NCBI RefSeq assembly: GCF_900626155.1
Contig: NZ_LR130844.1
Coordinates: 1,632,880-1,696,879, forward strand
Length of the DNA: 64,000 bases
DNA from: Anaerococcus vaginimassiliensis
Lineage (GTDB): Bacteria > Bacillota > Clostridia > Tissierellales > Peptoniphilaceae
Direction of reading: 5' to 3'
Below, piece by piece: positions 42,877 through 46,115 of this stretch. Made by a program: the position numbers and the translations under genes. A model generated the notes under the pieces. It saw only the letters and a program-made list of their open reading frames with translations. It made no database searches and was not told the origin of the DNA. Each line of letters begins with the position of its first letter. The stretch's first letter is position 1.

Positions 42877-43069
42877 AAATATCCCTCATTGTTTCACTAC
42901 AAGTATTACAGCAAACTTGGGTAGAAACTAAATCCCCCTCTTCCAATACTTCAACTAAATCGACTCGAACTTCTTTTCCGCACTTTGGACAGGTGCAAAA
43001 TACATTCTCATCATTTATTTCAATGCTTACTTCCATGACATCATTTATTTTTTCTTTAACATAAAACAT
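42869..43069 (-). CDS. Small zinc-ribbon protein
   Basis: The 66-residue protein has two Cys pairs, CTCPKCGKEV and QVCCNTCSETM, forming one zinc ribbon, with an acidic linker. GGAGGTTTATTC precedes ATG. It lies 12 nt after the DNA polymerase stop and before the DUF4406 gene. No specific family is recognised; a nucleic-acid-contacting role in replication is likely from the fold and context. Confidence 0.7.
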   Translation of the reverse strand: MFYVKEKINDVMEVSIEINDENVFCTCPKCGKEVRVDLVEVLEEGDLVSTQVCCNTCSETMRDIYE

Positions 43070-43081
43070 GAATAAACCTCC

Positions 43082-45940
43082 TTAGTCTTTCTTATAAAAT
43101 TCACTTTCAAATCCATCTGCATCTAAGATAAGTCCAGGTGCCCAAATAGGAGCTATGGACATGATTTCATTTATCTCTTCGATACTAGATGAATCACTTT
43201 CTATTACAACTTCATCATGAATATGCATGACGATATTAAATCCTTTTTTCTCCAGTCTCATCATAGCTTCAGTTAAAATATCTCTGGCTATTGCTTGAAC
43301 AATATTTTCTACAAACTTTCCTCCGTAAGATTCTATCTTGTCCCACTTATTTCCTACTACGATTCCTTCATAGACAATTGATTCTCCACCAAATCGATTC
43401 ATCCCTATTTTTGCCTTTGGATAAGCTAGTCTTCTTTTTGAGGGTAGTTGTATAAAAAGAATGCCTTTTTCATAGCTAATAACTAGGCTCTTATATTCTT
43501 CTTTACTTCTAGTCTTTACAACTCTTTTTACGACTGAATCTATATCCCACCACAAGCTTACGATGTTAGGATTAGCCTCTCTCCAAGAATCGACTATTGA
43601 TTGAAGTTCATCTTCAGATAAACCCATCTCAATACCACCCATTGCTTTAAGAGCACCTAAGGCTCCTTGGTAGCCACAGTTGTGAACTAATTTCCCTGAT
43701 ACGGTAAAACGGTTATTCTTTCCGGCATTTCGTATATCATAAAGTCTAGTCTTGCTTCTATACCTTTCCAATTTTTTCTTTTCTCGAATACAGCTAATTC
43801 TGCATCTTCTATAATTTCGTCTCGGCTTAATCCTTTTGAAAGTTTCCTTATAACAACACTTCGTGCATAAGGCCAGTATTTTTGATGAAATTCTGTTAAT
43901 ACAGTATTTCTCTTGTTCGAAGCATTCTCTATACGAGTCGCAAATCTTAAGTTGCCTCTTTCGTAATGCCCATTGTTGTCTATTCTGTCTATTTCTAGTT
44001 CTCTTTTTGGCAATCCAAATCTTTCTATTAAATAAAGACCTGCCTCTAGAATTGATGGAAACTTGAATTTTATTCCTCTTTCTCCATAGTTTTTGAACTC
44101 TGGATCTTTTGGGTTGGTACACCTTTGCTTTGCTGCTGTTAGCCTTCTGTCCAACCATCGTGGAATTTGTCTTGTCTGGGAGCAAGCTTGACATCCTTTT
44201 GACCTTCCTGTTGTTAAATTTCCCCTGTCTTGCCATTGAATGCTTCCACAGCCTTGACATCTTGTGAGGACATAACAAGAATTCCAGTTTTTCGCCCATC
44301 TTTTTTCTGGGCTTATAATCTTCACCCACCCGTATTGTTCTCCTACCATCTCCTGATTGTAGGAGATGTGCTCCGCTGGTGGCAGCTTCTCCAAATTGTA
44401 TTGGCTTTTCTTGCCCCTCGATCCATACGATATGGTCTTTTGTTGCTCTAAGCCCATCATATTCAATCACTTCTCCTATCCCCTTATATATAACTCCATC
44501 ATGTGAAACCCAGTTTTCTCCATCCCATAATTTATGAGCTTTTGTAAGTTTTTCTATAGGAACTAACCCCTTATCTGTAAGAACCAACTCGCCTTCAGCA
44601 ATACAAGCTAACGTCGCTATCTTTCCTTTTTGTCTAAGATGACCATTAACTCCATGCTTTTCAACTGGAACGCCAAACATCCTCGATGCTGTTCTGCAAT
44701 AGATATCTTCTCCATTTTTAAAGGCATCCAGTACCCATTGTTCCCCTGCAAGCCATGCAAGGACACGGGCCTCTATTGCTGAAAAGTCTGAAATAATAAA
44801 CCTGGTGCCTTCTTTTGCTATAAAGGCTGTCCTTATTAGTTGGGATAAAATATCAGAGGGCGATTCATATAGAATCTCCATAGTTTCGTAATCTCTATTT
44901 TTTACAAGACTCCTAGCTAGTTCTAAATCTTTTAGATTATTTCTTCTTAAGTTTTGAACTTGAATAAGTCTGCCTGAATATCTGCCAGTTCTGTTTGCCC
45001 CATAAAATTGGATCAGACCTCTTGCTCGATTATCTTTTCCTTTTACATTTTTCATAGCATCGTATTTTCTTACTGAAGACTTAGATAATTCTTGTCTAAG
45101 TTCCAATACCTCTTTAATATTACCTTCAGCATTTTTAAGAGCAGACTCTACGTCTTTTTTAGCTAATGAATCTATCTCTAAGTCTTTATTATTTAGCCAT
45201 TCTTTTAGTTGTAAGGGAGAATTTGGATTTTCAAGACCAGTTAGTTCTATGGCTCTGTCCATATTCTCTTCTCGTAATATTTCATCAAATTTAATAGCTG
45301 AATCAACTAAAACTTCATCAATCAAAATCCCTCTATCATTGATGTTCTGGTCTGTCCAGTAGTTTTCCCATTCTGAATGAGGCATAGAGAATGCTGATAA
45401 TTTTTTCTTAATCGCCATTTCTGTTTCCACATCTCTTCGGTTATATTCCTTAAAGGTAGACCACTTTTCTAAATCGTGATGTGGTAGATTTCTTTCCCTC
45501 ATACCATTTGTCTTAGTTGGTTTACATGGAATAGAAAAATATCTTATAAGAGCCTTGCCTTCATTCATCTTTTGCTTATCTAGTTTTAAAACCTCTCCTA
45601 CTTTTTCAAGCGATAGAGGTAGACCAAGATAGGCTGACCAAATCATAGTGCAGTACCAACCTTGAGGTTTTAATCTCTCTCCAAGAAATTTTGATAAACA
45701 CACCCTTTCAAAATTTGCATTAAAGACCCACTTTTCTATACTTTCATCACTAAGTGCTGCTAATATTTCTTCAGGAATAATCTCTCCACTTGCCAAATCT
45801 ATGACCTTAACTTCTCCATCATCTATAGAATAGGCAAAAAGGAGGATTTCAAAATCCTCACTCTCGGCATATTTGTATACACCACTTTTGCCTAAATCAA
45901 CTGAAGAATAGGTCTCAAGATCTATGGACAATTTCTTCAT
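43082..45940 (-). CDS. Family A DNA polymerase interrupted by an intein
   Basis: ATG at 45940 starts MKKLSIDLETYSSVDLGKSG, a 3'-5' exonuclease-type N-terminus. The polymerase domain has FIISDFSAIEARVLAWLAG (motif A), RQKGKIATLA / CGYQGALGALK (motif B, O-helix) and VMHIHDEVVIESD (motif C). An intein of 309 residues (43679-44605) splits motif B between Ala and Cys. The joined exteins are about 643 residues, normal for phage polymerases of this type. Without splicing the nucleotide-binding helix is broken, so the enzyme depends on protein splicing. It overlaps a small membrane-protein gene upstream. Confidence 0.93.
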   Translation of the reverse strand: MKKLSIDLETYSSVDLGKSGVYKYAESEDFEILLFAYSIDDGEVKVIDLASGEIIPEEILAALSDESIEKWVFNANFERVCLSKFLGERLKPQGWYCTMIWSAYLGLPLSLEKVGEVLKLDKQKMNEGKALIRYFSIPCKPTKTNGMRERNLPHHDLEKWSTFKEYNRRDVETEMAIKKKLSAFSMPHSEWENYWTDQNINDRGILIDEVLVDSAIKFDEILREENMDRAIELTGLENPNSPLQLKEWLNNKDLEIDSLAKKDVESALKNAEGNIKEVLELRQELSKSSVRKYDAMKNVKGKDNRARGLIQFYGANRTGRYSGRLIQVQNLRRNNLKDLELARSLVKNRDYETMEILYESPSDILSQLIRTAFIAKEGTRFIISDFSAIEARVLAWLAGEQWVLDAFKNGEDIYCRTASRMFGVPVEKHGVNGHLRQKGKIATLACIAEGELVLTDKGLVPIEKLTKAHKLWDGENWVSHDGVIYKGIGEVIEYDGLRATKDHIVWIEGQEKPIQFGEAATSGAHLLQSGDGRRTIRVGEDYKPRKKMGEKLEFLLCPHKMSRLWKHSMARQGKFNNRKVKRMSSLLPDKTNSTMVGQKANSSKAKVYQPKRSRVQKLWRKRNKIQVSINSRGRSLFNRKIWIAKKRTRNRQNRQQWALRKRQLKICDSYRECFEQEKYCINRISSKILALCTKCCYKETFKRIKPRRNYRRCRISCIREKKKLERYRSKTRLYDIRNAGKNNRFTVSGKLVHNCGYQGALGALKAMGGIEMGLSEDELQSIVDSWREANPNIVSLWWDIDSVVKRVVKTRSKEEYKSLVISYEKGILFIQLPSKRRLAYPKAKIGMNRFGGESIVYEGIVVGNKWDKIESYGGKFVENIVQAIARDILTEAMMRLEKKGFNIVMHIHDEVVIESDSSSIEEINEIMSIAPIWAPGLILDADGFESEFYKKD
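43679..44605 (-). other. Intein in DNA polymerase motif B
   Basis: The insert begins CIAEGELVLTDKGLVPIEKL (block A, Cys1), has a TxxH block B in LRATKDHIVWIEGQ, and ends TRLYDIRNAGKNNRFTVSG then KLVHN before an extein Cys (blocks F and G; terminal His-Asn; +1 Cys). These are all the residues for canonical class 1 splicing. Between blocks B and F, where other inteins carry an in-frame LAGLIDADG or HNH endonuclease, the intein frame gives an odd, strongly basic, low-complexity sequence rich in Arg, Lys, Ser and Gln. That is the shadow of a real protein encoded in another frame (43687-44466). Confidence 0.92.
43687..44466 (-). CDS. HNH homing endonuclease nested out of frame in the intein
   Basis: Within the intein, shifted by one base relative to the polymerase frame, 259 codons stay open. 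From about residue 40 they read VGEQYGWVKIISPEKRW, a zinc ribbon (TRCQGCGSIQ with KGCQACSQT), TAAKQRCTNPKDPEFKNYGE, RGIKFKFPSILEAGLYL and LEIDRIDNNGHYERGNLRFA: the plan of free-standing phage HNH homing endonucleases. Translation can start at TTG 44466 after AGGAG with 6-nt spacing, or at ATG 44460/44457. The stop lies 7 nt before the intein end, so its C-terminus overlaps splicing blocks F/G and its N-terminus block B. Confidence 0.9.
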   Translation of the reverse strand: MNMMGLEQQKTISYGSRGKKSQYNLEKLPPAEHISYNQEMVGEQYGWVKIISPEKRWAKNWNSCYVLTRCQGCGSIQWQDRGNLTTGRSKGCQACSQTRQIPRWLDRRLTAAKQRCTNPKDPEFKNYGERGIKFKFPSILEAGLYLIERFGLPKRELEIDRIDNNGHYERGNLRFATRIENASNKRNTVLTEFHQKYWPYARSVVIRKLSKGLSRDEIIEDAELAVFEKRKNWKGIEARLDFMIYEMPERITVLPYQGN

Positions 45941-46115
45941 AGCTATCACTAAGCTTTGTTAATTCTGCTAAATTATTTTTTCTATCTTCTTTTATTTGTT
46001 TTTCTATTTTTCTGATATCTCTATCTAGTTCTTTTAGTTGAGCTTGTAAAAATCCAAGCTTATACCATAAAAAGGACCAAATAGCTAAAACTATTGCTGT
46101 AATTAAATAGTCCAT
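45915..46115 (-). CDS. Small membrane-anchored coiled-coil protein
   Basis: The 66-residue protein has an N-terminal transmembrane segment (LITAIVLAIWSFLWYKLGF, about 4-22) followed by a charged coiled coil (LKELDRDIRKIEKQIKEDRK). It starts 9 nt after the DUF2815 gene and overlaps the polymerase start. No family recognised. Similar small membrane proteins occur beside phage polymerases. Function unknown. Confidence 0.6.
   Translation of the reverse strand: MDYLITAIVLAIWSFLWYKLGFLQAQLKELDRDIRKIEKQIKEDRKNNLAELTKLSDSYEEIVHRS

Follow-up and report, generated by a model that had tools for sequence, protein, structure and literature searches.

A probable mobile intein carrying an HNH endonuclease gene overprinted out of frame in a phage-type DNA polymerase gene

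Can an intein carry a homing endonuclease that is not fused to it, but is read from the same DNA in another frame? This question is raised by a gene for a phage DNA polymerase I (family A) in Anaerococcus vaginimassiliensis, located in a stretch of 64,000 nucleotides of contig NZ_LR130844.1 (the window, whose first letter is position 1; all features discussed here are on its minus strand). The codons of an intein separate ...GKIATLA from CGYQG... in this polymerase, at a point which we take to be the motif B or O-helix region, and a second open frame of 259 codons runs one base over in the same DNA. A first-pass annotation of the sequence read the second frame as a complete HNH homing endonuclease encoded out of frame within the intein, and the nesting of the two open frames is borne out. 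We consider it very likely that the element is a mobile intein with a complete HNH homing endonuclease gene overprinted in this way. The computed results behind this reading are the two frames themselves, the predicted folds of the intein ends and of the nuclease, the avoidance of stop codons, a switch of constraint along the element, empty insertion sites, and transfer of the intein between polymerase backgrounds.

Two open frames and their constraints

The polymerase frame contains the blocks expected of an intein. Blocks A, B, F and G, already listed at first pass, can be recognised by eye (C1; TKDH; YDIRNAG; HN, then C), and C1, T55, H58 and N309 are invariant in an alignment of 27 inteins, where the terminal residues of the relatives are partly given by construction because their boundaries were located by pattern. 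The +1 residue in the window is Cys. In the AlphaFold model of this frame, residues 1-80 and 281-309 reach a pLDDT of about 90, and 188 residues between them (87-153, 155-160 and 163-277) stay below 50; this middle, described earlier as basic and low-complexity, is probably disordered. Foldseek with the model gave the NpuDnaE intein as its top match (4kl5, E 1.1e-3, probability 1.00); no match reaches E 0.001, and the best 50 of 76 are all inteins or related autoprocessing domains. A profile built from seven sequences, of which six are joined intein ends, had nine PDB matches at E up to 1, all of them inteins and weak one by one (E 0.044 to 0.24). The sole NCBIfam match of the window intein is TIGR01445, the intein N-terminal model, aligned from residue 1. 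By these models, the two ends are predicted to form a Hint (intein) fold.

The product of the second frame resembles the HNH endonucleases of phages. It matches the PHROG HNH endonuclease profile phrog_374 at E 3.3e-23, as do all 28 aligned members (28/28), and tblastn with this protein finds matches in 634 phage records. Its AlphaFold model folds where the middle of the intein frame remains low-confidence, and the BFVD structure matches of this model are phage HNH endonucleases. The zinc ribbon and phage-type HNH core proposed at first pass are both present, and the HNH homology on which that proposal depended came from PHROG, tblastn and BFVD. The suggested search of Pfam gave nothing comparable: neither Pfam nor NCBIfam has a family for the window protein, and Pfam HNH_3 is matched in one of the 28 members, at E 0.096. 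After the nuclease core, model residues 202-242 (window 43741-43863) form a helical C-terminal part, possibly the DNA-recognition part. The frame ends at a TAG codon (43689-43687) that falls within intein block G, so that the HNH frame overlaps blocks B, F and part of G; the overlap claimed earlier thus stands for B and F, and for G only in part.

Relatives of this arrangement were collected in two sets. The first, from two viral scans, one genome scan, eight phage records and the window, comprises at least 232 loci with an HNH match: 124 embedded in the +1 relation of the window, 8 embedded in the +2 relation, 5 fractured, 15 partial (not used) and 80 others without an intein match. At least 107 embedded elements are distinct (100 of +1 and 7 of +2; locus L201 is excluded). 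Two further scans, the second set, gave at least 159 loci, among which 107 are new and distinct: 67 embedded +2, 26 embedded +1 and 14 not embedded. Of these 93 embedded loci, 86 have a TxxH-like as well as an HN[CST]-like pattern. Combined, there are at least 200 distinct out-of-frame HNH matches in such elements (at least 126 of +1 and at least 74 of +2), including phage and prophage copies.

The overlap of the open frames goes far beyond chance. In 74 distinct +1 elements, 3796 HNH codons could end in T before AA, AG or GA and thereby place a stop in the intein frame; none of them does (0/3796), versus 3042 of 9338 that end in T elsewhere in the same genes. This zero does not arise by construction, because the loci were chosen for having N and C blocks in the same frame; five loci with blocks in different frames are excluded from the count. 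The 37 distinct HNH matches outside inteins show T-ending codons at 346 of 1106 stop-making places versus 870 of 2801 elsewhere, and 0/37 are stop-free in that frame. When the HNH proteins are resampled with synonymous codons, about 10 stops per element are expected in the intein frame. Among the 107 distinct embedded matches of the first set, which include the window, the intein frame has a stop in none, and the third frame has at least two in each (mean 15). As an open frame defined the embedded class in the second set, its +2 codon count of 0/551 follows by construction, and only the 93 embedded among 107 and the expectation of 4.9 stops per element after synonymous resampling are informative there.

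Constraint is divided along the element. The ratio of nonsynonymous to synonymous differences (pN/pS) is 0.16 in the HNH frame (28 pairs); in the intein frame it is 0.20 in the N-terminal splicing part and 1.49 in the HNH core. Codon positions, analysed in regions set by window columns since the pattern-set element ends of some relatives are wrong, likewise switch from the intein frame at the splicing end to the HNH frame in the core. Selection on both frames, as proposed at first pass, holds in full only at the ends of the element; in the core, the intein frame preserves no more than its freedom from stops. The pattern bears on the notion that the HNH frame is a recent chance frame, or the decaying relic of an endonuclease once in frame. 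Twelve of the 107 distinct elements do have a stop in the HNH match, but eight of these have it only at match codon 243 or later. The frame persists down to 30-40% protein identity and in two frame relations, and together with the low HNH-frame pN/pS these observations already contradict a relic, which we find scarcely credible. Relatives with a broken HNH frame beside a conserved intein frame, named at first pass as possible counter-evidence, are exceptional: the HNH match is stop-free in 95 of the 107 distinct elements, one of these 95 (L005) having only an 85-codon remnant.

Table 1. Features of the polymerase gene, its intein and the HNH frame in the window.
Feature	Position	Strand	Basis
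Phage DNA polymerase I (family A) gene, 955 aa precursor	43082..45949	-	open through intein; open reading frame (ORF) listing
N-extein, C-terminal end ...RQKGKIATLA	44606..45949	-	boundary by intein-free alleles L235, L236, L239
Intein, 309 codons, CIAEGELVLT...RFTVSGKLVHN	43679..44605	-	invariant C1, T55, H58, N309; model with ordered ends; Foldseek
C-extein, N-terminal start CGYQGALGAL	43082..43678	-	ORF listing and intein-free alleles
Intein block B TKDH, residues 55-58	44432..44443	-	T55 and H58 invariant; sequence
Middle of intein frame, residues 87-277: open, basic, low-complexity filler	43775..44347	-	pLDDT <50; pN/pS 1.49 in HNH core
Intein blocks F and G (RLYDIRNAGKNNRFTVSGKLVHN), then Cys +1	43679..43747	-	alignment; model strands at 281-308
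HNH endonuclease ORF, +1 frame, 259 codons	43687..44466	-	PHROG profiles; tblastn; model mean pLDDT 80.4; BFVD
Probable HNH coding part, 257 aa	43687-44460	-	conserved ATG start
Zinc ribbon of HNH protein (C70, C73, C92, C95)	44182..44259	-	all four Cys invariant, n=28 sequences
HNH core ELEIDRIDNNGHYERGNLRFATRIENASNK	43909..43998	-	
Conserved ATG, probable HNH start, within intein-frame Tyr-Asp codons	44458..44460	-	ATG conservation; TAT preference
Internal Shine-Dalgarno-like AGGAG	44473..44477	-	6 nt before TTG 44466, 12 nt before ATG 44460

The host gene matches Pfam DNA_pol_A (6.1e-21), phrog_17 (2.8e-135) and phrog_10285 (5.6e-114). Its neighbours match a primase/helicase, a nucleoside deoxyribosyltransferase, a Gp2.5-like single-stranded DNA-binding protein and an exonuclease, and the surroundings look like a prophage replication module. 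A search of window 43000-46000 against Rfam (E up to 1) listed one match, to a lncRNA family at chance level, and no intron. This result and the host frame, which is open throughout, speak against a group I intron with an endonuclease ORF, and the single open polymerase frame speaks against a fractured gene with a split intein in the window.

Translation of the nuclease

Where would translation of the nuclease begin? The first-pass annotation chose TTG 44466, 6 nt behind an AGGAG that is indeed present; the conserved start is instead the ATG at 44460, which probably initiates the HNH protein. The ATG and Shine-Dalgarno counts come from 64 loci, including three fractured ones, and their statistics ignore kinship of rows. 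An ATG stands at this position in 44 of the 64 distinct loci, and the Tyr codon that creates it is TAT in 62 of 78, versus 38.4 ± 4.0 expected. In Streptococcus phage Javan422, which has lost most of the HNH part, the Tyr codon at this place is TAC. A Shine-Dalgarno sequence of at least 6 nt precedes the start place in 24 of 64 loci, compared with 12.3 ± 2.5 after synonymous resampling of the intein-frame codons, and none of 1000 resamplings is as high. In 58 of 64 loci of the +2 lineage, an ATG or GTG falls at a Trp codon, largely forced by the protein. The +1 patterns suggest that the nuclease is translated separately there, by internal initiation.

The following course of events would fit the element. 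Ribosomes translating the polymerase would cross the HNH gene in the wrong frame and produce a stop-free, basic and probably unstructured linker between the halves of an ordinary splicing (Hint) domain; excision of the intein would then restore the polymerase. Initiation by other ribosomes would probably take place at ATG 44460, within block B, with the AGGAG-type site as a guide; their product would be a separate zinc-ribbon/HNH nuclease of 257 aa. This enzyme would presumably cut intein-free polymerase genes at motif B, and repair of the cut would copy the whole element into them.

Programmed frameshifting out of the polymerase frame and back into it could instead make the HNH part as a fusion or as a part of the intein. 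The intein and HNH frames do overlap, and in 13 of 89 distinct +1 loci (L035 and L043 among them) more than 30 open codons of the HNH frame precede the start place; one frameshifted locus, L393, shows that a fused frame is possible. A splicing intein would nevertheless require two compensating shifts, and HNH-frame stops upstream of the start place, within 6 codons in 45 and within 30 codons in 76 of the 89 loci, would confine any shift to a short stretch. Moreover, the ATG and the Shine-Dalgarno sequence are conserved beyond amino-acid need. Judged by these stops and this conservation, frameshifting is improbable as a source of the nuclease, and internal initiation remains our preferred account.

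Mobility and spread of the element

Several alleles, among them L235, L236 and L239, run exactly ATLA-CGYQG without an intein. The family of the window genome was covered by 130 genomes: at an E limit of 1e-10, the HNH part is found in 6 of them, and at an E limit of 0.001 a polymerase C-extein match is found in 53, some of these matches weak and perhaps from cellular PolI. Thirty C-extein loci were inspected: 6 have this intein, 1 was unplaced, and 23 are empty at the site, although three of the 23 carry another intein at a different place in the gene. In L238 and L264, both from this family, the window's site is empty and a different intein lies at TGRY^C...N^SGRL, read in frame and with a middle that is LAGLIDADG-like by eye. 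L265, whose gene is of equal length, agrees with them in the empty site and in flank identity, and probably carries the same other-site intein.

Seven distinct alleles with the intein form 21 pairs, and in all 21 the intein has diverged less than either flank. Between the window and Peptoniphilus genitalis, divergence is 0.11% in the intein and 5.7% and 9.6% in the flanks. Two mini-inteins occupy the same site, one of 168 aa in phage Javan422 and one of 140 aa in Ruminococcus phage NatCom_23091; both have lost most of the HNH part and retain the splicing ends and an open polymerase frame. Empty sites, the divergence contrast and the mini-inteins fit homing by a separate nuclease; the divergence contrast is an indirect sign that the HNH protein may cleave the intein-free polymerase site.

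It might also be thought that the insert does not splice, being retained as a tolerated loop of the polymerase with intein-like ends as relics. The ShiLan insertion, an out-of-frame HNH with an open host frame (PMC11855218), offers a precedent, and splicing of the window intein is a prediction from sequence and model. Set against this are C1, TxxH and the terminal Asn, all conserved across relatives, the strong purifying selection on the N-terminal splicing part (pN/pS 0.20), and the two HNH deletions, which both kept the splicing parts. The insert also lies in the motif B region, a catalytic helix. We therefore hold a retained loop to be highly improbable and continue with a splicing intein.

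Several observations weigh against an overprinted homing intein. The HNH model had no confident match in a Foldseek search of the PDB, and what we take to be the usual first His of the HNH motif is replaced in this protein by DRID, for which reason its catalysis is presumed rather than evident. TIGR01445 scores the window intein at 14.8 bits, below the cut-off of 24.5, and matches only 6 of 27 members at all. No ATG stands at the position of 44460 in 20 of 64 loci, the 12-nt spacing from AGGAG to ATG in the window is above the ideal, and the +2 lineage has no Shine-Dalgarno sequence of 5 nt or more in 64 loci of its own. Finally, distant comparisons also show the intein to be more alike than the exteins (0.62-0.75 versus 0.52-0.67; 12/12), so double constraint may account for part of the low divergence of the intein, though hardly for 0.11% versus 6-10%.

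The window element is likely one of a widespread and previously unrecognised class of overprinted mobile inteins, in which an independent endonuclease gene lies out of frame (+1 or +2) in a stop-free filler of the intein, within phage polymerases and helicases. In a tree of the HNH proteins, the +2 rows form one clade (support 99) and +1 requires nine changes, by a quick method that resolves about half of the forks. Because the lineages differ in frame, either out-of-frame capture took place two or more times, or a capture was followed by a change of frame relation. Hosts include PolA with several insertion positions in and near motif B, SF2 helicases with insertion near what we take to be motif VI, and DnaB-like helicases (phrog_19 for L068 and L071; no match for L069). 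Contig titles name Firmicutes, Actinobacteria (Gardnerella, Corynebacterium), Proteobacteria, Spirochaetes and others, and the intein DNA had no match among the plasmids of PLSDB. One contig of 214 kb (IMGVR_UViG_3300046030_000049) has two polymerase-intein elements, L018 and L019, which are separated by about 67 kb and show 70% identity each to the HNH of the window. On scaffold22 of Taishania pollutisoli (Bacteroidota), L207 has an HNH whose identity with that of Salmonella phage JNS02 rounds to 100%, which looks like contamination.

Other arrangements of the same HNH family also occur. In fractured loci (L104 1874-4839; L114 1964-4812; L080 1688-4650; L084 2060-4857; L085), one ORF joins the N-extein to intein-N and another, in a different frame, joins intein-C to the C-extein, and an HNH ORF overlaps both. 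This type was inspected in L080, L084, L104 and L114, and L085 was assigned to it by match positions equal to those of L084. Such fractured versions may be evolutionary neighbours of overprinted inteins, as relatives or as products. Among the intein-associated loci examined, no intact in-frame fusion of this HNH family was found. The one frameshift-fused exception is the helicase intein of L393 (1797-4222): here the intein-N frame runs on into the HNH frame through an apparent frameshift, and intein-C lies in another frame. L201 (1420-4864, Aggregatibacter kilianii contig) is a PolA with apparently two close inteins, the first split between frames and the second with an out-of-frame HNH. At L193 (80-1513) and L195 (3056-4037), an HNH gene immediately follows an interrupted PolA in which no intein blocks can be recognised, and Rfam found no intron at either HNH/PolA locus.

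Relation to known systems

Overprinting offers an answer to the opening question: by using another frame, an intein can house an HNH gene of the free-standing phage type and yet remain unfused to it. If this holds, the nuclease is uncoupled from protein splicing, and its dose, timing or loss need not affect the host protein; the two natural mini-inteins illustrate how it drops out. The same-strand overlap of 257 codons, with a plausible function for both frames, also comes with about 200 natural replicates for the study of overlapping codes. Overprinted HNH genes escape annotation: in eight phage records examined, one of which (Javan422) has its HNH mostly deleted, only the polymerase is annotated across the element.

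Like conventional large inteins, this class has splicing blocks, insertion at an active site and patchy distribution, but the endonuclease of the former is normally fused in frame, and the HNH of the window is out of frame. Group I introns with an HNH gene in a phage polymerase are also familiar, I-HmuI and I-PfoP3I (PMC3428280) reportedly being examples. The shared feature is an HNH gene within a phage DNA polymerase gene; unlike these introns, which are removed as RNA, the window element has no Rfam intron match and leaves the host frame open throughout. Our searches of the open-licence literature turned up no intein described as having an HNH in another frame; for a methylase, an out-of-frame HNH is reported in PMC12613952.

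Two systems come closer. In fractured genes, which Dassa and colleagues are said to have described in 2009, a free-standing endonuclease gene lies between the halves of a split intein. As in the window, the nuclease there would be a gene of its own between intein halves and not a domain of the intein; unlike them, the window has an unbroken host frame with the nuclease wholly inside it. The ShiLan domain, or Pacc40 gp60 insertion, has an HNH nuclease in another frame and adds no stop to the host frame; its patchy distribution suggests homing, how the nuclease is translated was a puzzle, and neither intein or intron splicing parts nor a detectable ribosome-binding site was reported (Arsenault, Gosselin and Gogarten 2025, PMC11855218). 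The window element shares with ShiLan the HNH in another frame and the open host frame. It belongs, in contrast, to a class with splicing blocks and a predicted Hint fold, with PolA and helicases as hosts, with two frame relations, and with a conserved ATG and Shine-Dalgarno enrichment in +1 members, the two systems being set apart here by description. The class of overprinted inteins would also link two puzzling arrangements, the hidden HNHs of the ShiLan type and the fractured split-intein genes.

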